A stretch of 64,000 bases of DNA. It comes from Capsulimonas corticalis. GTDB lineage: Bacteria; Armatimonadota; Armatimonadia; Armatimonadales; Capsulimonadaceae. Below, piece by piece: positions 50,345 through 64,000 of this stretch. The translations under genes were made by a program, and so were the position numbers. The notes below the pieces were generated by a model. It did no database searches, had not been told where the DNA came from, and worked only from the letters and a program-made list of their open reading frames with translations. The first letter of the stretch is position 1. Each line of letters begins with the position of its first letter. The stretch covers positions 6,882,001 through 6,946,000 of the forward strand of contig NZ_AP025739.1 in assembly GCF_003574315.2 (NCBI RefSeq), read 5' to 3'.

Positions 50345-51514
50345 TCACCCATCATTCATTTCCACCAACAACGGCATCAAATAATTTCGACTGATCCACT
50401 CCACCACTGGCACACACACCGCGTCTCCAAAGCCAAATAGGGCCTGATTCCGCGGAACATCAATAACATATTCTTCGGCTCCCATTAGTCGTGCGCACTC
50501 GCGCGGCGTGAGATTGCGAACCGAAACCGTGCCAAATCCCGCCTTGATCAGTATCTGCTGAGAGCTGCCGCCTTTGGGAGTGCGCAAACAGCCCGCGATG
50601 CCATCGGATCGAAGTTCCGCCACATACACGCCATTTCTCGTGCGCCGAAACACTGTGCCGTAGCTCAATTTGTCGTTTGCGATCATTTTTTCGGCAACCT
50701 CGCGATGGCGATCACTCATCTGGCTCAGCAGATACATCGAGCGCTTCTCGTCCCACCACTCGCTCGCATTAGCTGGCAGGTCTTCCAATATTTCGTCCAG
50801 CGTCGCCGATCCACTCGGTAGCTCAGGCAGCACTCGCAACCGCCAATTGATGTCGAGGTGGCTGGAGATAAAGGAGGTCAGCGCCTTCGGTCTCAGCTTA
50901 CTCAAGAAGGTGTCGGTTTTGACTTCAATGGGCAATTCCTGCTGAACCGCTATTACGAAGAGGCGCTGGCGCGATTGCGGAACGAACCATGCTGCGTCAA
51001 TAATCACGGCGTCCACAGCGTAGCCAAGATCGTTGAGCGCGCACATAGCGCGATGGAAGTCTTGGCCTCCATGGGAGGTCAGGAAGCTCGGGACGTTTTC
51101 CAGCAGCACAATCGGCGGCCTTCGGGTTTCCATTCCCTTCAGGATATTCAAAAATCCCCAGAAGGCTCCCGACTGGGCCCCCGCAAGCCCTGCGCGCCCG
51201 CCAGCCAGCGACAAATCCGTACAGGGAAAAGACGCTGTGGCGAGAGTAACCGTCGGCACGGTTGCGGGATCAATCAGATGGATGTCTCCGAGCACAAAAT
51301 GATTTGCAGGGTAATTGGTAGCATACATTTGCCACTTCTTCGGGTCGATATCGTTGGCGAATTCTACAGACCAGCCCGCTCGCTCCAGCCCCATGCGCAT
51401 TAAGCCGATACCCGCGAAAAATTCGGCAACTGTCGGCGGAAGCGAGTTGTAATGGTTGGTAGCGGCGGGGTGGTTGGTGAATGTTGCAGCGGTCACCACA
51501 GGTTCGTTCATCAT
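50345..51514 (-). CDS. C5-cytosine DNA methyltransferase
   Basis: 389 residues from the ATG at 51514. All main motifs are present: I (VAEFFAGIGLMRMGLERAGW), IV with catalytic Cys (ASFPCTDLSLAGGR), VI (LLENVPSFL), VIII (QSRQRLFVIAV) and X (QALFGFGDAVCVPVVEWI). The target-recognition region is between VIII and IX (about 230-320). It methylates cytosine at an unknown site. No restriction enzyme gene adjoins, so it looks like an orphan enzyme of a mobile element that guards DNA or controls expression. Confidence 0.93.
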   Translation of the reverse strand: MMNEPVVTAATFTNHPAATNHYNSLPPTVAEFFAGIGLMRMGLERAGWSVEFANDIDPKKWQMYATNYPANHFVLGDIHLIDPATVPTVTLATASFPCTDLSLAGGRAGLAGAQSGAFWGFLNILKGMETRRPPIVLLENVPSFLTSHGGQDFHRAMCALNDLGYAVDAVIIDAAWFVPQSRQRLFVIAVQQELPIEVKTDTFLSKLRPKALTSFISSHLDINWRLRVLPELPSGSATLDEILEDLPANASEWWDEKRSMYLLSQMSDRHREVAEKMIANDKLSYGTVFRRTRNGVYVAELRSDGIAGCLRTPKGGSSQQILIKAGFGTVSVRNLTPRECARLMGAEEYVIDVPRNQALFGFGDAVCVPVVEWISRNYLMPLLVEMNDG

Positions 51515-51696
51515 GCTCTCAATTCGCGATTTGAAATGACAGGTAGCCCGCAGCACTGCTGACCCTGTCTCGACTACCTTATACAGATTGAATGCTCTGG
51601 CGAATGAGATGAACGAAATGAAAGCCTCAGGTCAGGAGATTGTCGAGTCATGGATGGGCGGTGAGGTATAGATTGGGCATCCGTCTTCAAACGAAC

Positions 51697-53558: not shown

Positions 53559-53762
53559 ATGCTGCCCATTCTCATTATCCTGTATTTTTTCGGTGGCCTC
53601 GCCAGCTTTATCTTCCTGGTCATCCAATATCTACGTTTTGCCATACGCCGACAGCGACAAATCATGGACGCCATCTATTCACTCGGACAGGGATCAGCCA
53701 CTCAAGTTAACGAGTGGCTGTTGTGTTCTCTTATTACTGGTGATCGTCCAGCGTACACGTGA
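53559..53762 (+). CDS. Small membrane protein
   Basis: 67 residues, one or two hydrophobic helices at the start ([20 protein letters not shown]) and a basic region after ([17 protein letters not shown]), i.e. positive-inside tail. Its last 29 bases overlap the end of the convergent prepilin-like gene. Plausible but small. Confidence 0.5.
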
Positions 53763-54513
53763 TCGTAGGATCACTCCCGCCAGTAACCATTTGGTTCGCG
53801 ATGATATCGGACACCAGATGCCATTTCGCATGACCATCGATATAATTAATGTTCTGACCTTCGGAGTGGCGCTGGGAGAGACCGTCAGTCATCCAATCGA
53901 AATAGCCATCGTTGGTTGATCCCGCAGTATTATCCCCAGCGCCATCATCTCCAAAGTTCTCTTCTCCAAATAGCATCCATGAAGAAGGATTGTCGAAAGC
54001 GGAGAGATGTCGGCCAATTCTTAATCCATTGACGACCTTCCCCTTATCAACACAGGCGTTGATGGCATAAGAATCCCCAGACTTCTGCCCTACGGTGTCA
54101 TCAGTGCAGATGAAGACTCCCTTATTGCGCACATAGGGGTACAAGCTCCCCTGCGATGGATCGTAGGCTCCTGGCGTTGTCGCGGGATACGCCTTGTAGA
54201 AGATCCATCCGCCGTGTATATTCGCGCCCCAGGTGTTGTCCGCAGCGGCGGGCATTTCCTCGTCGCTATCCTGCACGTATTGCATCACGGCGATTCCCAA
54301 CTGTCTCATGTTCGACATACACGCCATCTGGCGAGCCTTTTCGCGCGCCTTAACAAAGGCTGGAAAGAGCAGGCCAGCGAGAATCGCGATGACAGAGATC
54401 ACAACGAGCAGTTCGATCAGCGTAAAACCGAAAGTGCGGCCCCGACGTGTATTCCGAGCGCCATTCGGCGTCTGCTTGGGCGGAATGCGTGAGACGGTAA
54501 TTTGCGGAGACAT
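53734..54513 (-). CDS. Prepilin-like protein with H-X9-DG ending (DUF1559-like)
   Basis: 259 residues from the ATG at 54513, which has AGGGAAAG two bases before it; the frame extends to 54561. After about 28 residues comes the class III prepilin signal [20 protein letters not shown], with Glu5 intact. The C-terminus has [17 protein letters not shown], the H-X9-DG motif. Such pseudopilins are cut and methylated by PilD-type peptidase and used by type II secretion-like systems. It is the last gene of the six-gene operon. Confidence 0.88.
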
Positions 54514-54567
54514 ATCTTTCCCTAATTCCTGCATCGGCAGCCGTAGCTTCTTCGACGCCAATCGATC

Positions 54568-55242
54568 TTAATGGAGCGTGAACGACGAGAGTGTCCAAGG
54601 ATCGGTGACACCCTGGCGCGTTTGCACCACTTTGACGTAGCGGGCCGTTTGGGGGCCGAGTGCGATGATCGTGATCGGGGCCTGACCCTCGCCACGAACC
54701 ACTGAGCTTCCCCAATGGTCGCCGTCAGCTGAGAGATAGACGGCATAGCCGCGCGGATACGCATTGGCGTCACCCCCCGTATCCAGCACGATCTGATGAA
54801 ACTTCTGCGGGCGTTTCATATCCACGGCAAACCAGTTCGTTGGCCCCTGAGCGCCCTGCGTTGTCCAAGGAGCCTGTGACTTTCCGTCAATCGCGCCATG
54901 TGCCATGTCGGAGGAGGGATAGGCAGTCGCCTTCCAGCCTGTCATCGGCAGGGCGGGACCGTCAATTGTCGGTGGACGCAGTCGTATCATCACATACACA
55001 CCTCCGCAGATAAACAGAACAAGAAGGATGATGGGTTTGCGTATCCAGAGCCAGGCCAGAGTCAGTACGAACACGAATGGCCGCAGAATCCACGCCAGCG
55101 CCTCTCCAAGAACGGTCTTCGGGGAAGACGGCTTGGGTTTGCCTGGCAGAGGCGGCTGTTCGACTCCCTCTTTTGGAGTCGTCGTAACGTCATATCGCGG
55201 GCGCGCTTCGCCGAAACGTGATCTTCGAGGCGATGTCTTCAT
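54568..55242 (-). CDS. Membrane-anchored discoidin (F5/8 type C)-like protein
   Basis: 224 residues. Basic, Pro-rich N-terminus, two hydrophobic segments at about 48-88 (LAWILRPFVFVLTLAWLWIR and KPIILLVLFICGGVYVMI), then a beta domain at about 95-224: SSDMAHGAIDGKSQAPWTTQ, TNWFAVDMKRPQKFHQIVLD, RGYAVYLSADGDHW and ARYVKVVQTRQG. That is the F5/8 type C fold, which binds glycans. So it would present a sugar-binding domain outside the inner membrane. Gaps of 18 and 54 bases place it within the operon. Confidence 0.8.
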   Translation of the reverse strand: MKTSPRRSRFGEARPRYDVTTTPKEGVEQPPLPGKPKPSSPKTVLGEALAWILRPFVFVLTLAWLWIRKPIILLVLFICGGVYVMIRLRPPTIDGPALPMTGWKATAYPSSDMAHGAIDGKSQAPWTTQGAQGPTNWFAVDMKRPQKFHQIVLDTGGDANAYPRGYAVYLSADGDHWGSSVVRGEGQAPITIIALGPQTARYVKVVQTRQGVTDPWTLSSFTLH

Positions 55243-55260: not shown

Positions 55261-56085
55261 TCATTGAGTGCTGAACGTCATCTGCACAGGTGTCGCGCCA
55301 TCGGAGAGATACATCTGATCCGTTGCTGCCGCCTGATCAGCCTTCAGATGATCTTGAGCATTCCCCGACCTTCCGTCCGTACCGCTGGAAACCTGCCCGC
55401 CAAGAAGGTACGACACATGTCCATCCGCTCCCAAGAAATTCGAGCCGCCGCCGTGGCGGGGAGTATTGTCGGCTCCAGAATCGATCCCTTTGCGTTCGCC
55501 CAAATTGCCCGTGGCGTAGGTGATGTGGGCTCCCTCCCCCCACTGGCCGTAGGGACGCCCTTGATTGCTGGCGAGCAGCCCAAATCCGCACGGCGAGAGC
55601 ATTTTGCTGGCGGGCTGGACCTTCCACTGATTGCTGCCTTCATCGGCCTTTCTCACATCAACCTGTACGCCGCCGACCTCAAACAGCATGACCGTGCTGG
55701 CGGGCGCCTTGAGCTTGGAGAACTGGTCGATCAGATTCGCATTGATCCCATAAGAGACAGGAACGGCGCCTCCACTAGCAAGCCCGAGGTCGTCGGGACA
55801 CTTGTAAGGCGCGGCAGATTTCACGTAAGGGTAAATACGTCCAGCCCAGCCCTGCGGCCCCTCAAAAAACTTTGGTGGAAAGCATTGGTCATTGTCCTGA
55901 ACATACTGCGCCAACCCCAGCCCGAGGCGGCGCATATTGGAGGCGCAGGTGATCTGCGGAGAAGGCTTCAAACGCGCGAGGAGAATAGCGCCGAGAACCG
56001 AAACGGCGGCGACGGAGATCAGGGTATGGATGAGAGTAAAACCGACTTCGGCGGTATGCGATCCGCGCCGAGAATTTGTGGACAT
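55261..56085 (-). CDS. Prepilin-like protein with H-X9-DG, lacking Glu5
   Basis: 274 residues from the ATG at 56085 (56106 also possible). The signal reads GFTLIHTLISVAAVSVLGAI: the usual Glu at +5 is His. The rest follows the H-X9-DG family (CASNMRRLGLGLAQYVQDND, CPDDLGLASG) with RHGGGSNFLGADGHVSYL at the C-terminal third. Loss of Glu5 in pilins normally stops methylation or assembly contacts, so this protein may be a terminal or minor pilin, as in GspK-type subunits. It precedes the discoidin-like gene by 18 bases. Confidence 0.82.
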   Translation of the reverse strand: MSTNSRRGSHTAEVGFTLIHTLISVAAVSVLGAILLARLKPSPQITCASNMRRLGLGLAQYVQDNDQCFPPKFFEGPQGWAGRIYPYVKSAAPYKCPDDLGLASGGAVPVSYGINANLIDQFSKLKAPASTVMLFEVGGVQVDVRKADEGSNQWKVQPASKMLSPCGFGLLASNQGRPYGQWGEGAHITYATGNLGERKGIDSGADNTPRHGGGSNFLGADGHVSYLLGGQVSSGTDGRSGNAQDHLKADQAAATDQMYLSDGATPVQMTFSTQ

Positions 56086-56129
56086 GATTTCTATTCCTTG
56101 ATGCAATATGGCTCACGCTAAAAAGGCGC

Positions 56130-59100
56130 TCACTTCTTCTGGGAATGACTCTTCGGCGTGATCTTCAGCGGATTGGCGGGATGCGATAAAGATCGCGATG
56201 CGGGCGCCGTGATTGGCGAGAGGACAAACTGGCATTGTCCACGCTCACTCTCTCTGTTGAGCCCAAGAACCTCGCCGCTATTGTTAATTGACAGCGCCAA
56301 GCAAGAGTGGGCCATCTTCTTCTGACGCGCGGGATCCACGACCAGCAAGGGGATCAAGTCTCGCATGCCATGAGCGCTGTCCCATAGAAAGGGTCTGCCG
56401 CCAGGGTAGGCGATCTGGTTGTCGGGGCGGCTCTCGCCGATCACCTGTCCAGCGTCGTTCACTCCCAGGGCTCGGGAGTAGACATCACCAGGAAGCGCTC
56501 CCAAATCGTGCAGAACGCCATTCTCCCAAAGAAACGCCGTGACGGAGCCGTCAGCGTGGTCGGCGGATCCAACCACCTGTCCAGCGTTATTCATTGCATT
56601 CGCGACGCTCACATGCCCATCCCCGAACACACCGATATCGTTCATGACGCCATCCTCCCACACCATCGCATGTGTTCGGCCATCGACGGTTAGTACCCAG
56701 CCTGCGATCTGACCAGCATCGTTAATGGCATAGGCTCGGCTGCTGACGCAGTTCGGTAAAACCCCAAGGTCTTTCATATGACCATCTTCCCAGAGGACCG
56801 CGCGGGAAGAGTTTTCAATTGGCGAGTCTGCTTCCGCCGTACTGTTGAAAGCGTAGCCAACGACCTGTCCTTTGTCGTTGATCGCCTCAGCACGGCTATT
56901 CGTAAATCCTGGCAGCGTTCCCAGGTCACGAACCGCGCCATTCCTATCCCAAAGGGCGGCGTGGTCTGCCCCATTCTCAGGGTTAGACCAGCCGACAGCC
57001 TGACCTGCGTCATTCACCTTAACCGCCGCGCCATTCCCTTCGCGAGTCAACGTCTCCAGCATCTCAAATCGCCCATTTCTCCAGAGATAGGGCCGCGTGT
57101 TGCTGTGGGTCACCACATACGAAGCGACCAATCCTTGCTGATTGATTCCTCCGTCATGTATCATAAACTGCATGTCGGGAATTGGATTGAATACCTGACA
57201 TTGATATTGCGTCGCTTCAGCGGAAGTGTACGCCGACGCCTCCCATCTGCGCTGAAACCTTGGAGAGGAATCCGTATCCAGCGGCTGACGCCCCAGGAGA
57301 AAAAGCGCGTCCGACGTGGAGAGCGCCTCTGGCCGCTTGTGGAAGTAATATTGGCTTGCTTGTTCGAGACCGCCTGTTGGCGCTCCATAATCACGGTCGT
57401 TTAAATACAGCTCTTTGATGCGCGCTTCGGGAATGAGGGTGCTGATCATGGAAGCCAGAACTGTTGATGATATTATTGTGAACGGATTCCGCCGTCGATC
57501 ACCTCCGACGACTCGCCGCGCAATCGTAACAGCCATTCGCGGCGACATTTGAATACGCGATCCAAAAGCCTGGCGAAAAATATCGTGCTCATCTTGACGG
57601 GACACAGCAGCGGGCATGCCACTTGGCAGCGCGTTTTGCAGCGTTCCAGGCATTGAGCTCCACGGGACGAATGCGGCGACGCCGATTGGGGAGCCAGAGC
57701 CAGTCATCGACCACGCGATCCCCCACAAAGCGCAAAACCAGACGACAGGCGCCAGAACGCAAATCGCGCCAATCGCCAAATGAGGCTTTCGGAAAGGAAT
57801 GGGGAATAAGACACGAAAGGCCCGCGCCGATGACTGCCTCGAAGTAACGCCAGAGATCGCCAGCGAGGCGATGCACAACGCCAGCACCCACACACCTGAA
57901 GTGTTGTTCGCGATCCGCCCGAACGCCAGCAGCGCAACGAGCGTCGTGACTGCGCTGGCTGCAAGAGCCTGGGCGTCGTGGTTGGCGCGTAAGCGCTGAT
58001 CGGGGCGACGAGTATCAGCCCCCGCAGTCAGGCGCGCGTCACATGACGCCTTCATCAGGGCATCCCAGCTTCGGCACAGTGCATCCACAAGCAGCAGGCC
58101 AAGGATCCCCCAGAAAATCCATCCCTCCTGAGCAATGAAGGAGGAAATGGACCCAGGCGAACCTCCCGAAGTTCTCAGACCCGTTCCAGCAAGCATCTCT
58201 CGGACACTCTGATCCGTATTCCACGCCTCGGCGGCAAGGTATGTACGGAAGACATATAGCGCACCGCAAAGCACGAATACCGCGATAGTTCCCCAATAGG
58301 GCGGCGTGATGCGTTGTCCAAATGCTCTCCCTGACCACAACATAGCTCCTAGACAGCATGCGACCAGCGCAATGCTGGTCCATCCCGCCCCGCCAGAAAT
58401 TTCGACCGCTGGATCGAGTATGATCGCCGCGCCGCCAGCCAGCGCCGCCAGAGCGTAAGGTAAGTAAGAAAGCCTCGACACGGAACCGCTGGTGAGGCGG
58501 TCACTTTCGGTAAAGAGCGAAGGCAGAGCAAGCGACAACACGGCGACCGCTGGGAGGCCCGCCTGAGCGTGCAATCCGATCAAGGAACATGTCGCCACGG
58601 CAAGAAGTAGATCCCGCCAGGCTGCGGGTCTGCGCACCGTGCGGACGGCAACTACGGCAGCAAGAACGGCGAGGCTCACGCCCAGCGAGCTGCTATAAGG
58701 ATAGTCTCGTACATTTGATGTCAGCCAATCCTTCAAGCACAGCCAGACCAGGGCGCCCCCGAACGCTATTCTCCCAAGAATTGCTGTCTTATCCGTTCTC
58801 GAAGTTCGCGAACTCTCCTTCGCCGCAGACCCGTCTAAAGGCTGGACTGTGGAGTGCGGAATAGCGACATCGCGGAATACAAAGACTTGAAAAGCGCGTC
58901 TCTGCTGCTGAGAAGACTGGAGAGTACCACTATGGATTTTCCGACGTAACCATCGGAAGATCGCAATGGGTCTGCGCCACAACGAGTTGATTCGCGGCAA
59001 TGCTGCGACCAAGGAGACTGGCTCTAAACGCTGCCGCAAGCGAACCTTGACGCTCGTCAGTGATTGTGGATCCACGGCGACATGCTGTCGCTCGCACATA

Positions 59101-60119
59101 CCCACGAATGAATAAGCAAGAATCGCCAAAGTTCCCGCCGCGAAAGCAAACCACCATATCCGCGCTCCTGTGTTGTTATATGTAAGGACAGTTGCAGCCT
59201 GGCAATACCCGAGCAACCCATATAGCGCACCTGCTGCTCCTGCAAAGAGATTTATCCTACCTATCTGATCCTGATTACCGTCGATCAGGAATGTGGCTGC
59301 TCGCCATTTCTCTCGCCCAGGAAGACATCTGTAAACTCCACAGCCCGTCGCACACAAGACCAGCAATAAAAGAAAGCGTATTAAACCGCCTGCCGCAAAA
59401 ATGACGGAGATCGTCACTGCTCCCAACCCCATCATAAGCAGAACGAAACGAGCTGTTCCAAGAAAAGCATTGGGAATCACAATCGAAATCTGTCGCTCCT
59501 GCGATTCCAATATCCAGTTGTCTTCAGGGGAGAGACGCCAGGAAGCGAGGCTGGACGCGCCCAAGATGAGCACTACAAGCACACCCCACTGTGGCAACGC
59601 CGTCATGCCGACATTTTGTCGTAAAAGCGCCGCTCCTTCATCTTCTTGGGGGAAGAAACACAATGTGAACAACGATGTCGCGACGACGATCAGATGGAGC
59701 TGATTATGGGCGCGAGACGCCGATTGCCCCTGCGCCGATCCCAAAATCGACGCCCAGGACAGACTGAGTGCGATGATGGCAAGCATTGGATAGAGGCCAT
59801 TCTCTCGCAACCATAACGCCAGACTCGATTGGCTGAACGTCATGAGAACCAGGAAACTTAGAATACTGGTGACGCCCAGCAACGCGGCAAAATCCGCCGC
59901 TCGGAGGCGCCGAACGCCATCCCGCATTACTGATCGTAGTTCTTTCCCCCACACACGAAATGTGTCAGCCCCCAACGGCTGATTCAGAGGCTGCGCGAGC
60001 TTCTGGATATCATTTGCGTCCAAAGGCCGATTGAGGCGCGACCATAAGGCTTTGAAAATGTTTGGCGAGCGGGGCGGATCGCTTGTCTGTTGACCAGCGC
60101 TCTCTGTCGAATGTCGCAT
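56130..60119 (-). CDS. Giant multi-span protein with degenerate GT51 region and HAF repeats
   Basis: 1,329 residues. About 1-80 soluble; about 18 hydrophobic spans between 75 and 805, in two blocks split by a loop at 355-440. The second block has a faint SEDS (FtsW/RodA) look (GSISSFIAQEGWIFWGILGL). Residues about 835-945 resemble GT51: RIKELYLNDRDYGAPTGGLE and ASQYYFHKRPEALS match the paralogue at 60581, and Glu844 sits where the first catalytic Glu is expected, but GGSTITQQ is replaced by NPFTIISS. About 980-1300 hold five or six HAF repeats (DLGTLPGFTNSRAEAINDKG), a predicted extracytoplasmic beta structure. Likely a scaffold or pseudoenzyme. Confidence 0.75.
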   Translation of the reverse strand: MRHSTESAGQQTSDPPRSPNIFKALWSRLNRPLDANDIQKLAQPLNQPLGADTFRVWGKELRSVMRDGVRRLRAADFAALLGVTSILSFLVLMTFSQSSLALWLRENGLYPMLAIIALSLSWASILGSAQGQSASRAHNQLHLIVVATSLFTLCFFPQEDEGAALLRQNVGMTALPQWGVLVVLILGASSLASWRLSPEDNWILESQERQISIVIPNAFLGTARFVLLMMGLGAVTISVIFAAGGLIRFLLLLVLCATGCGVYRCLPGREKWRAATFLIDGNQDQIGRINLFAGAAGALYGLLGYCQAATVLTYNNTGARIWWFAFAAGTLAILAYSFVGMCERQHVAVDPQSLTSVKVRLRQRLEPVSLVAALPRINSLWRRPIAIFRWLRRKIHSGTLQSSQQQRRAFQVFVFRDVAIPHSTVQPLDGSAAKESSRTSRTDKTAILGRIAFGGALVWLCLKDWLTSNVRDYPYSSSLGVSLAVLAAVVAVRTVRRPAAWRDLLLAVATCSLIGLHAQAGLPAVAVLSLALPSLFTESDRLTSGSVSRLSYLPYALAALAGGAAIILDPAVEISGGAGWTSIALVACCLGAMLWSGRAFGQRITPPYWGTIAVFVLCGALYVFRTYLAAEAWNTDQSVREMLAGTGLRTSGGSPGSISSFIAQEGWIFWGILGLLLVDALCRSWDALMKASCDARLTAGADTRRPDQRLRANHDAQALAASAVTTLVALLAFGRIANNTSGVWVLALCIASLAISGVTSRQSSARAFRVLFPIPFRKPHLAIGAICVLAPVVWFCALWGIAWSMTGSGSPIGVAAFVPWSSMPGTLQNALPSGMPAAVSRQDEHDIFRQAFGSRIQMSPRMAVTIARRVVGGDRRRNPFTIISSTVLASMISTLIPEARIKELYLNDRDYGAPTGGLEQASQYYFHKRPEALSTSDALFLLGRQPLDTDSSPRFQRRWEASAYTSAEATQYQCQVFNPIPDMQFMIHDGGINQQGLVASYVVTHSNTRPYLWRNGRFEMLETLTREGNGAAVKVNDAGQAVGWSNPENGADHAALWDRNGAVRDLGTLPGFTNSRAEAINDKGQVVGYAFNSTAEADSPIENSSRAVLWEDGHMKDLGVLPNCVSSRAYAINDAGQIAGWVLTVDGRTHAMVWEDGVMNDIGVFGDGHVSVANAMNNAGQVVGSADHADGSVTAFLWENGVLHDLGALPGDVYSRALGVNDAGQVIGESRPDNQIAYPGGRPFLWDSAHGMRDLIPLLVVDPARQKKMAHSCLALSINNSGEVLGLNRESERGQCQFVLSPITAPASRSLSHPANPLKITPKSHSQKK

Positions 60120-60149: not shown

Positions 60150-60584
60150 TTATTTTTGCCCTGAATTCAGGATTTTTTGTTCTGTGCCCACATGCCCAGT
60201 AAGCAAGAGCCACGTTTCAACTTTCTGGTCTCCATGCGTCGTCGCGAAACACCCACCAGATGAAATCTCCTTCGTATCTTCAAGCTTCACATTCAGCGTC
60301 ACGTCCGCCTGTCCGTGTGGAGGAATAACGGGAGCAGACACGCTGGCGGTCGTACATTCGCATCCTGTCGTGACAATCGACAGGCCCACAGGAAATGAAT
60401 GAGGATTGCTCAGTCGAAAGGCGTGGGTTAGCGGATGGTCAGCAGGAATGGTCCCTACGTCATAAACGGTTCCTCCTGCGACTTCCACCGCAGGCTTTTC
60501 ATGGCCACGCATTTTAAAGGCAATGCCGACTCCAAAAAGCAACGAAACGGCGATCAGAAGCACTATTGAAATCCGAGTGCTCAT
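60150..60584 (-). CDS. DUF1573 family protein
   Basis: 144 residues from the ATG at 60584, which overlaps the stop of the upstream gene (ATGA). An N-terminal membrane anchor (ISIVLLIAVSLLFGVGIAF) is followed by an Ig-like ASH/DUF1573 fold: TVYDVGTIPADHPLTHAFRL, the strand FPVGLSIVTTGCECTTASVS, and IPPHGQADVTLNVKL. DUF1573 proteins are extracytoplasmic and of unknown role. The CEC pair may form a disulfide. Confidence 0.88.
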   Translation of the reverse strand: MSTRISIVLLIAVSLLFGVGIAFKMRGHEKPAVEVAGGTVYDVGTIPADHPLTHAFRLSNPHSFPVGLSIVTTGCECTTASVSAPVIPPHGQADVTLNVKLEDTKEISSGGCFATTHGDQKVETWLLLTGHVGTEQKILNSGQK

Positions 60585-63028
60585 AGGTTTGCCTTCTCGA
60601 CACAAACACTCTCACCATCAGATCGCGCATAGAACTCATTCTTCGGCAGGAGCAGATTTCCTCGCTGCGGATCGGACACCAGGAGATAATCTCCCCACTC
60701 GCCCACCACGACGATCCAATGTTCCGTAGGACGGGTCAAGGTGACAATGGCTGGTATCCCAGTTGTAGCGATATCGTCCAAAAGTTCATCCGAAGTCGCG
60801 ACAGTGTCGACCGTTTGCACTCCATGCGCTTTGAATGCCCGAATCAATTCGTCACTCCTAGTGCAGCGAGCACCTCCTGTGTCCAACAGATGCATAAGTT
60901 GAAGTTCACTGGTCGGTTTCTTGAGATAATCGGACAGGATCGCCGCAACACAAGCCTCTCCGCACGAGTGGCCCGTTGTTTGCCGAACGAACGTCCCACT
61001 TAGCCATGTGGCAATACGGGCAGGTAAGTGTTTAGTCTGATGTATCTCCGCCATCGTTTCTTCGACGGATTTGGCAGGAGGATCTTGCACAGGACGTGGA
61101 GTTGTTGAGCGTGGCCCCTTCACTTCGGTGTGAAAGTGTGTCTGATGGCGCTTAGGGTCGTCATTCCAATCCACCACGGCGTCGAAGTGGCGATTGAGCA
61201 TCGCCTCCAACGGCGCGAGACGCGCCATCACCTTCGGATTGTTATGATCCTTGACACTCACTCGCGAGCCATCCGCGAATCGAAAGCCAGAGATATCAAT
61301 GGCTTGTCCATATGCGTGCGACGAAATGACTTTCTCCTCCTGGCGCGTGCTTCGGTCGTTATATACACCCAGGTGGTCGATCCCCACCACATGCAAATGC
61401 TGATGCGCCTCAACTAGAAATCCCGCGAGGCGAACCTTTAAAGAAAGCGACGCATTATCGATGGGCAGCGGCTCATATGGATTCTCAAAAAAATAGAACT
61501 TCACGCCATGCCAATCGGCTGGTATTTCGCATGTCGCTCCTCGATCCCAGGCGTCCTTATTAGGATAGACCAGCATGTTGAGCGGATACCCCGAAGCCAG
61601 ATCGCATTGTTCTTGAGAATATCGATTGGGGAAGAAGTATCGAATACGACTGAAAGCTGTGTGCTGGCCTACTATTAGCCTCTGGGGATCGACCTGCTTT
61701 TGCATGGGGTCGGACACAATCCCGACAAGAATTGCGCTTTCCGCTAGGGTCAGTTTATCTGGCGTTTTATGGAAATAATATTGCGCTGCGGCTTTAAGCC
61801 CCCGCTGCCCCATTCCATAGTCAATCGTGTTCAAATATAGCTCAAGAATACGCGACTTGGGCAGCATGCGCTCCAGCTCCAAGGTGTAGGCCGCCTCCTC
61901 AATCTTGCGCCATATAGTTCGATCACTCGTAAGGAACAGATTCTTGGCAAGCTGCTGGGTGATTGTGCTGCCCCCCTCTTTGACCTGTCCTTCACTTAGA
62001 TCAACACGTAGGGCATGGTGCATGGCGATCCAATCGAAGCCATGGTGTCTGTAGAAGGCATGGTCTTCCATGGCAATGGTGGCATCCTGCATTGATGGTG
62101 AGATATTTTCTAAATAGACGAAATCTGCCTTTGTAGCTGAATAATGGCTGTATGGCAATACTCTCCATTCAAGTAAGTGGTCAAAAGAGATAAGTACGCC
62201 AGTCAGAATGAGAAGGACAGTCATAAAAAAAAATGGATGTCGTCTCTTGCGTGTTCTAGATAATATCTTATTAGGCGGTAAATCTGAGCCACTTAAAATA
62301 GCTATTGATAGGAAAAACAGACATAAGCCAAAGGGTTCTTGCAGACTTATCCTTGCTCGCACGCCACATAAAAATATTGATAGCAGTATGCAAGCAGGAA
62401 CAAAAAACAGAGCACAACTTATATATATAAACTCCAAATCACTTTTACGGCTCAGATTAGTGAATAATGCACTCCAGCCAAGAAACAATGAAGCGATAAG
62501 CGAGGTAAGAAGAACAGGCAAAATACTCCATCCTAGTTCTTCACATAGAAATTGGGCAGGTGATATGCCAGAGGCGATGCCTTTCGCTCTGATTCCCTCC
62601 CCCAGCCAAATAGAATTAGCAAGAGACGAAGATACAGGAGTTGGATACAGGATAAAAATACGTATAGCACAAAGTGATAAAAGAATTATGAATCCAGCAG
62701 CTATTAAGAGAATCAAATTGAAAATGAAAGAGCTTATTTCCTTTCGTTCGAGATTGCGCTTTCCTTGAATGCGGTAAAATTTCGAAAAATATCGATATAA
62801 CATCCATGGCGCGAACACGGCAAACAAGGTCTGGAGGAAAGCGATATAGGGATATGGGCTTGCGCTAGAAAAAAGAGCGTCTTTTATGACCAATATAAGG
62901 CAAACTGCAAATCCTATTTCAAAAGTAGCACTAATTGCCCCTTTCCAGTTCAGGCACAGCCCTAATCTATTTACTATACCATGGAGGCAATCAGCCTTTT
63001 GTTCTAATGCTTCTTGTGAACGTGGCAC
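60581..63028 (-). CDS. Membrane - GT51 - M15/extensin-like - C39 peptidase fusion
   Basis: 815 residues from a GTG at 63028. Order: about seven membrane spans (32-282); GT51 peptidoglycan glycosyltransferase (about 300-470) with Glu321 in MEDHAFYRHHGFDW, GGSTITQQ at 352-359 and second Glu378; an M15/extensin-like Zn peptidase (about 520-640) with His571, Asp578 and the HFH pair at 631/633; and a C39-type cysteine peptidase (about 675-810) with Gln683, Cys689, His770 and Asp786. All three catalytic sets look intact. It could extend glycan strands, trim stem peptides and cut a target protein at the inner membrane. First gene of the operon. Confidence 0.88.
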   Translation of the reverse strand: MPRSQEALEQKADCLHGIVNRLGLCLNWKGAISATFEIGFAVCLILVIKDALFSSASPYPYIAFLQTLFAVFAPWMLYRYFSKFYRIQGKRNLERKEISSFIFNLILLIAAGFIILLSLCAIRIFILYPTPVSSSLANSIWLGEGIRAKGIASGISPAQFLCEELGWSILPVLLTSLIASLFLGWSALFTNLSRKSDLEFIYISCALFFVPACILLSIFLCGVRARISLQEPFGLCLFFLSIAILSGSDLPPNKILSRTRKRRHPFFFMTVLLILTGVLISFDHLLEWRVLPYSHYSATKADFVYLENISPSMQDATIAMEDHAFYRHHGFDWIAMHHALRVDLSEGQVKEGGSTITQQLAKNLFLTSDRTIWRKIEEAAYTLELERMLPKSRILELYLNTIDYGMGQRGLKAAAQYYFHKTPDKLTLAESAILVGIVSDPMQKQVDPQRLIVGQHTAFSRIRYFFPNRYSQEQCDLASGYPLNMLVYPNKDAWDRGATCEIPADWHGVKFYFFENPYEPLPIDNASLSLKVRLAGFLVEAHQHLHVVGIDHLGVYNDRSTRQEEKVISSHAYGQAIDISGFRFADGSRVSVKDHNNPKVMARLAPLEAMLNRHFDAVVDWNDDPKRHQTHFHTEVKGPRSTTPRPVQDPPAKSVEETMAEIHQTKHLPARIATWLSGTFVRQTTGHSCGEACVAAILSDYLKKPTSELQLMHLLDTGGARCTRSDELIRAFKAHGVQTVDTVATSDELLDDIATTGIPAIVTLTRPTEHWIVVVGEWGDYLLVSDPQRGNLLLPKNEFYARSDGESVCVEKANL

Positions 63029-63532: not shown

Positions 63533-64000
63533 CTAGCGCCGCCTTCTCCATAATAAAATAGCGACAAACGCGATCATTACCCCACATACCACATATACAC
63601 CTACTGCACTGCGTCGAGGTTTAGTTGTAAGTTTATCGTCCTTTATTGGACGAATACTAAAGACTTTTTGATCACTAGGAATCCCATGATTTGCTGCATA
63701 TGATACAGGAATATTCTTATCAAACCGATAATCATCTAAGTGCGTACCGATTGGTAGACCGTTAGAAATCAGGTCAGTTTTCGCCAAAGCATTAAATTTG
63801 GCGCTTATTAGATTATACTCTTCATCTTGAAGAACTGCTCCCGATTCAGTCATTTGCAAAATTTGTACATGTGATGGAAACCAAATCGAATCATTATATA
63901 ATTTATATCCATCTGCAGTATATTTATTTCTTGTTTTTCCATTGGTTCCATCAACGATCTCTATCATTATTGGTCGAGAATATTTATCGGAAACATGGCA
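63533..64000 (-). CDS. C-terminal part of a surface protein with tail anchor (start outside window)
   Basis: The frame is open to the window edge (codons ahead of the ATG at 63967 read CHVSDKYSRPI). Visible: a beta-rich domain (YNDSIWFPSHVQILQMTESG), then a membrane helix at the very end (GVYVVCGVMIAFVAILLW) and RRRR. That is an extracytoplasmic domain with a C-terminal anchor. The part with KLYNDSIWFPSHVQ resembles LolA-type outer-membrane-lipoprotein-sorting proteins, uncertain. AT-rich like the rest of this end of the window. Confidence 0.6.
   Translation of the reverse strand, partial: CHVSDKYSRPIMIEIVDGTNGKTRNKYTADGYKLYNDSIWFPSHVQILQMTESGAVLQDEEYNLISAKFNALAKTDLISNGLPIGTHLDDYRFDKNIPVSYAANHGIPSDQKVFSIRPIKDDKLTTKPRRSAVGVYVVCGVMIAFVAILLWRRRR

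Follow-up and report, generated by a model that had tools for sequence, protein, structure and literature searches.

An apparent GT51 pseudoenzyme with HAF repeats within a Wzy_C-GT51-prepilin cassette of Capsulimonas corticalis

GT51 enzymes, such as the class A penicillin-binding proteins (PBPs) and the monofunctional MGT, are peptidoglycan polymerases, and Wzy_C enzymes are polymerases or ligases of surface glycans. SEDS polymerases (FtsW/RodA) are multi-span proteins that are likewise tied to glycan polymerisation. Among the O-antigen ligase-like proteins, PglL is the precedent for a ligase encoded beside its target: in the sections of the source drawn on here, pglL homologues are described as often adjoining the gene of a prepilin-type (target pilin) protein (PMC3643930). 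This article concerns a 64,000-nucleotide stretch of the genome of Capsulimonas corticalis, phylum Armatimonadota (contig NZ_AP025739.1, positions 6,882,001 to 6,946,000; the window), and herein one protein, P0001, of 1,329 residues from its ATG, which is encoded at 56130-60119 on the minus strand. Sequence comparison identifies P0001 as a much-diverged representative of the membrane-body and GT51 family of a recurring cassette, with an extra N-terminal module and a C-terminal HAF domain.

P0001 consists of four parts: an orphan multi-span N terminus, a second multi-span body, the C-terminal half of a GT51 domain, and HAF repeats (Table 1). The sequence-only reading had placed a protein of this length here, and the open reading frame (ORF) is found exactly there. 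It had also counted about 18 membrane spans ahead of the GT51 domain; hydropathy gives 13 hydrophobic segments with a strict threshold and 17 with a loose one, which is close to that number and bears out the multi-span body. The chance of 1,329 stop-free codons is about 3e-21 at the GC content of the window (0.579). The gene is part of a tightly spaced run, which also holds the active paralogue at 60581 to which it had been linked, and starts 30 nucleotides after the DUF1573 gene, with a GAGGA stretch before its ATG. An assembly or frame artefact, joining separate genes or masking an intact GT51 domain, would explain so unusual an architecture in one genome only. It is hardly credible, as the genome is one contig, and the four segments are all open in one shared frame, with stops present in the others. 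Moreover, no GT51 motif is hidden in another frame: a tblastn search with the GT51 domains of 13 relatives yields only the in-frame remnant above chance scores.

The GT51 domain is recognised by Pfam PF00912 (Transgly) at residues 883-951, above its curated cut-off. The match spans profile positions 89-157 of 178; hence, only the C-terminal half of GT51 is recognisable. A GT51-like stretch had been delimited at 835-945 before, of which the part from 883 on stands, whereas the remainder is not recognisable. P0001 keeps ELYLN (at 903) and QYYFHK (at 923), as stated earlier, and the remnant matches the A. aeolicus PBP1A weakly (E 0.023). P0001 shares this half with class A PBPs and MGT. Unlike these, it lacks motifs 1 to 3 and has 13-17 hydrophobic segments ahead of the domain. 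It also lacks a transpeptidase match in Pfam, and the NCBIfam PBP models match the GT51 part only, so that it does not qualify as a class A PBP.

Motifs 1, 2 and 3 of GT51 are E-D-x-x-F-x-x-H-x-G, GGSTITQQ and RKxxE, respectively. In a scan of 14 proteins (P0001 and the 13 relatives), with a motif 1 pattern that tolerates asparagine in place of histidine, all three are absent from P0001 and present in 13 of 13 relatives; three of these carry the asparagine, and motif 2 is slightly variable among them. The motif 4 pattern is unmatched in P0001 and in one relative, G085. The loss of GGSTITQQ and the designation as a pseudo-GT51 are hence upheld. A different outcome is obtained for Glu844, which the sequence-only reading took for a retained catalytic residue: a glutamate exists at this position, but in the family alignment Gln842 and Asp843 lie opposite the Glu-Asp of motif 1, and a one-residue gap would be required for Glu844 to count as conserved. 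Because motifs 1 to 3 are gone in P0001 and kept in all 13 relatives, catalysis is very unlikely. That P0001 is still catalytic with altered residues would agree with a C-terminal half that scores over the cut-off; it is nevertheless very improbable given the missing motifs and a region that is shorter than in the relatives. In the GT51 tree, in which five of the 13 ordinary PBP loci chosen gave no row, P0001 is not placeable, its terminal branch having a length of about 8.6 changes per column.

The body that precedes the GT51 remnant is, by profile alignment, homologous beyond hydropathy to the membrane body of the cassette GT51 family. Residues 430-832, without GT51, align by hhalign with the bodies of five GT51 proteins (the 815-residue protein of the window, L034 of the same genome, G039, G083 and G085) at a score of 40.1; 100 block shuffles designed to preserve the pattern of hydropathy never exceed 24.6. 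The global alignment is collinear, going from a K-D-W-x-x-S...Y-P-Y segment over G-x-G-L...Q/E-G to the segment right before GT51. A signature (D[WAFPIL]xxS, four residues, [YF]x[YFE]) matches 36 times in 267,593 residues of ORFs, with many redundant loci, and always within 11 distinct family proteins, including P0001 at 464. Since the pattern was drawn from the same proteins that it matches, the telling point is that it has no match outside the family. Compared with the cassette GT51 proteins (the 815-residue neighbour; L034, L035, L097, L098; the fused L102-L106 and L158), P0001 exhibits the body, the signature and GT51 in the same order and the same place before a prepilin-like gene, but it differs in its N-terminal module, in the HAF domain replacing Extensin-like_C, and in its dead GT51.

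The sequence-only reading had suggested the SEDS and O-antigen ligase families for the body. SEDS identity finds no support: P0001 is multi-span like SEDS polymerases, yet no Pfam match to FtsW/RodA up to E 10 occurs in P0001, in three relatives of the same type or in three fused relatives. The ligase suggestion fails directly, as Wzy_C (PF04932) has no Pfam match in the whole of P0001 or in residues 1-450 or 424-820 taken separately; indirectly it is supported, since the bodies to which that of P0001 is homologous are in turn relatives of the bodies in Wzy_C-GT51 fusions. Herein, the set of GT51 bodies from loci with separate genes (split type) aligns with the fused bodies at E 1.6e-7 over 107 columns, and no Wzy_C match is found in the split-type bodies scanned. 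The cassette body may thus derive from the Wzy domain of a fused protein, with the ligase signature disappearing once a separate Wzy took over. The profile of the fused proteins matches the solved polysaccharide polymerase/ligase 7TPG (WaaL) weakly (E 0.0026).

Residues 1-440 match no Pfam family, and among 291 genomes of the phylum no match better than E 0.01 is found except the module itself. Two candidate origins were rejected. As a second Wzy body, its hhalign score is reached by 51 of 100 shuffles against separate Wzy and by two of 100 against fused Wzy, the latter weak value stemming from residues about 305-334. As an internal duplicate, it shows no real similarity to the other membrane half of P0001.

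The cassette around P0001 is a recurring one. It comprises a Wzy_C O-antigen ligase, GT51 (with an M15-like extensin domain), a prepilin-type DUF1559 protein, a Cys-rich secreted protein and an anchored protein of 330-420 residues. Wzy_C and GT51 form a single polypeptide in some families and are separate genes of one cassette elsewhere. Six ORFs in four genomes are fused with both domains over the cut-offs (L102, L103, two in L104, L106, L158); L161 and L162 are of the fused type with Wzy_C slightly below the cut-off, and further matches to the profile of the fused proteins, strong but for the most part incomplete, come from G021, G035, G208 and G048. This profile reaches E 1e-50 or better in 18 of the 291 genomes, in some through the GT51 part alone. 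A separate Wzy_C gene is present at all ten split-type loci examined (the window with L183, L034, G039 with L185, L097-L101, L159 and L160), over the cut-off in nine and 0.2 bits under in G039. A search for related loci with the 815-residue protein as the sole query found none. Within one genome, the three fused genes of L103 and L104 encode near-identical GT51 domains but Wzy domains that differ greatly, a pattern that would fit homogenisation of GT51 alongside diversification or swapping of the ligase part.

Among the repeated neighbours are the Cys-rich protein and the 330-420-residue protein, which has a C-terminal span. Small secreted Cys-rich proteins lie at the cassette head in L183 (2182-2604), L103 (2013-2480) and L106 (482-844 and 2114-2485). 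The one scanned (L183) has no Pfam match, and these proteins may be what the cassette acts on or produces. The label 'LolA-like' for the 330-420-residue protein was withdrawn, as three scanned have no Pfam match. A sigma-70-like gene is located beside the cassette in G039.

Between the active GT51 gene and a prepilin-like gene, P0001 occupies the GT51 slot of the cassette. An ORF with a prepilin motif starts no more than 4 kb downstream of 14 of 19 cassette GT51 genes (13 within 250 nucleotides), compared with one of 15 ordinary PBP genes. These counts were obtained after the motif and offset had been loosened, when missed prepilins were noticed, and after five of 20 control loci without a GT51 gene by pattern had been dropped; with the stricter motif used at first, the counts were 10 of 18 and 0 of 13. 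The genes without such an ORF are those of L034, L036 (window), L158, L162 and one of L104. All ten downstream ORFs scanned match DUF1559 over the cut-off. Of a PglL/TfpO pilin oligosaccharyltransferase system, which is defined by the transfer of a lipid-linked glycan to a pilin-type protein, the whole cassette displays Wzy_C and a prepilin-type neighbour. Its ligase belongs with the O-antigen ligase and PglL-type pilin oligosaccharyltransferases (Wzy_C) and adjoins a prepilin-type gene, as pglL often does in the portion of the literature cited above (PMC3643930). In contrast to PglL-type systems, for which that portion mentions no coupling to GT51 (PMC3643930), P0001 has no Wzy_C match, and DUF1559 proteins are not classical pilins.

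The repeats after GT51, which had been described as HAF-type, are confirmed by TIGR02913 in five repeat stretches (140.7 bits, cut-off 22.65). Unlike in other HAF repeat proteins, they are joined to a pseudo-GT51 membrane protein. HAF ORFs, 32 in number and from 30 loci, were compared. For the HAF domain of L034, the sister cassette in the same genome, the best match other than itself is that of P0001 (134 bits). Conversely, the L034 domain is the best own-genome match of the P0001 domain, though it is outscored by three ORFs from other genomes. The L034 domain is the C terminus of a DUF1559-like pilin protein with a decayed prepilin motif (L034, 7703-9742), and in L106 a HAF gene adjoins the cassette. 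Therefore, HAF travels with the cassette in at least two genomes.

In L155 (5398-7386) and L156 (4898-7078), HAF repeats lie C-terminal to an M56/BlaR1 peptidase domain, and by eye the small ORF before each gene reads like BlaI. HAF may hence be a new kind of sensor domain in BlaR1-type proteins. P0001 could itself be a HAF-gated sensor of the BlaR1 kind, in which HAF senses an extracellular ligand and the N-terminal module with the basic stretch signals inward, the pseudo-GT51 being a linker or lipid-binding remnant. Those two HAF-M56 proteins, beside their BlaI-like ORFs, and the 19 lysines and arginines within residues 343-444 agree with this; however, Pfam and NCBIfam find no M56 or signalling domain in P0001, and no regulator gene is seen adjoining it, which leaves a sensor quite improbable.

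P0001 stands about an even chance of being a membrane pseudoenzyme of the cassette family that pairs with the active enzyme or the ligase and displays a HAF domain. It would have arisen by duplication and be produced together with the active 815-residue GT51 protein and the pilin-like proteins. The pairing, with either the active enzyme or Wzy, would occur via the shared membrane body. The HAF domain, presumably periplasmic because it is located after GT51, would bind a ligand, a glycan or a pilin-like protein, and P0001 would thereby position or regulate the polymerisation of a glycan and its transfer. The sequence-only reading had suggested a scaffold or regulator of the active protein, a putative role of this kind. 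As a whole, the cassette would probably serve to synthesise a glycan that becomes attached to the pilin-like protein or close to it. This proposal draws on the GT51 half-match, the motif loss, the homology and signature of the body, the GT51 slot, and the fusion or co-presence of Wzy_C and GT51. It further draws on the best non-self match of the sister-cassette HAF domain and the HAF domains that follow M56/BlaR1 in relatives, and on 1,329 codons that stay open despite so long a terminal branch.

Several points weigh against the pseudoenzyme. No P0001 orthologue is found in the 291 genomes with residues 1-980, 1-440 or 441-832 as queries, the latter two searched apart because no more than two candidates from each genome were scored in the 1-980 search. 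The objection named in the sequence-only reading, namely homologues whose active site is complete, applies to paralogues only. P0001 hence looks like a lineage-specific, diverged duplicate. An open frame is no proof of function, and we infer both its expression and its contact with the active protein. Two AlphaFold2 models from seven-row alignments (a P0001 model was not used) are poor, with a mean predicted local distance difference test score of 45.6 and 56.4, and carry no information on pairing; Foldseek with the model of the 815-residue paralogue found GT51 structures and nothing usable for the body. The main rival is a relic, that is, a duplicate of a cassette gene that is drifting after the loss of enzyme function. 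Its junctions with an orphan membrane gene and with a HAF gene would be accidental, and it would have no specific role. P0001 is a singleton among the 291 genomes, its GT51 part is extremely divergent, and chance fusion is easy since HAF genes are common in its own genome (19 matches, mostly HAF). Compared with this, the stop-free frame, the neighbour spacing of 30 and 23 nucleotides, the GAGGA stretch and the retained body signature speak against decay, and the divergence seems far too deep for a dead gene that is still open. A relic is thus rather unlikely.

Table 1. Features of P0001 and of its neighbourhood in the window
Feature	Coordinates	Strand	Basis
P0001, multi-span protein with pseudo-GT51 and HAF repeats, 1,329 residues	56130..60119	-	ORF, Pfam and NCBIfam
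Orphan membrane module, residues 1-440, 6-7 hydrophobic segments, then basic stretch 343-444	58800..60119	-	Hydropathy; no Pfam match
Membrane body, residues 441-832, homologous to the body of cassette GT51 proteins	57624..58799	-	hhalign and collinear global alignment
Wzy/TM-GT51 family signature DWLTSNVRDYPY, residues 464-475	58695..58730	-	Pattern scan
Expected place of GT51 motifs 1-3, all lost, residues 835-882	57474..57617	-	Family alignment and motif scan
GT51 C-terminal half, residues 883-951	57267..57473	-	Pfam PF00912, 31.5 bits, cut-off 27
HAF repeat domain, residues 970-1300	56220..57212	-	TIGR02913 E 9.1e-42; DUF3466 E 1.1e-11
Active-type paralogue, 815 residues: membrane body, GT51, Extensin-like_C and Peptidase_C39	60581..63028	-	Pfam; GT51 motifs all intact
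DUF1573 protein	60150..60605	-	Pfam; 25-nucleotide overlap with the end of the 815-residue gene
DUF1559 prepilin-like protein, directly downstream of P0001 (23 nucleotides), FTLIH not FTLIE	55261..56106	-	Pfam
Membrane-anchored F5/8 type C domain protein	54568..55242	-	Pfam
Second DUF1559 prepilin-type protein, FTLIELL	53734..54561	-	Pfam
End of the conserved 397-residue cassette protein, remainder outside the window	63533..64000	-	Comparison of loci

The prepilin-like protein next to P0001 matches DUF1559 with 27.0 bits (cut-off 23.3); with FTLIH instead of FTLIE, the conserved Glu5 is missing. The C39 peptidase domain (60593-60991) is a C-terminal extra of the 815-residue protein and is not among the domains of the relatives scanned. 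A Cys-rich protein gene and the Wzy_C gene are located beyond the gene of the 397-residue protein. Elsewhere in the window, the ORF at 50345-51556 reads by eye like a cytosine-5 DNA methyltransferase.

A literature search over titles and abstracts, with most subscription journals outside its coverage, found no description of a Wzy_C/GT51 or O-antigen-ligase/transglycosylase combination. It likewise found nothing on GT51 pseudoenzymes, nothing on HAF repeats that describes an arrangement like that of P0001, and nothing relevant on DUF1559/H-X9-DG proteins. If the proposal made above is true, P0001 is a GT51 pseudoenzyme. A more specific and improbable extension is that the cassette is a glycosylation machine for pilin-like proteins: a GT51 polymerase of lipid-II type and a transferase of O-antigen-ligase type would act as one unit, which in some families is a fusion, to place a peptidoglycan-like or lipid-II-derived glycan onto H-X9-DG/DUF1559 proteins, with P0001 as a pseudo-GT51 subunit whose HAF domain recognises acceptor or product. 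P0001 alone is a modest find, and the surrounding Wzy-GT51-prepilin cassette is the more interesting result. It offers a candidate partner for DUF1559/H-X9-DG proteins. The occurrence of Wzy_C and GT51 ahead of a prepilin-type gene, as a fusion or within one cassette, suggests a pathway in which the two chemistries contribute to a single product.

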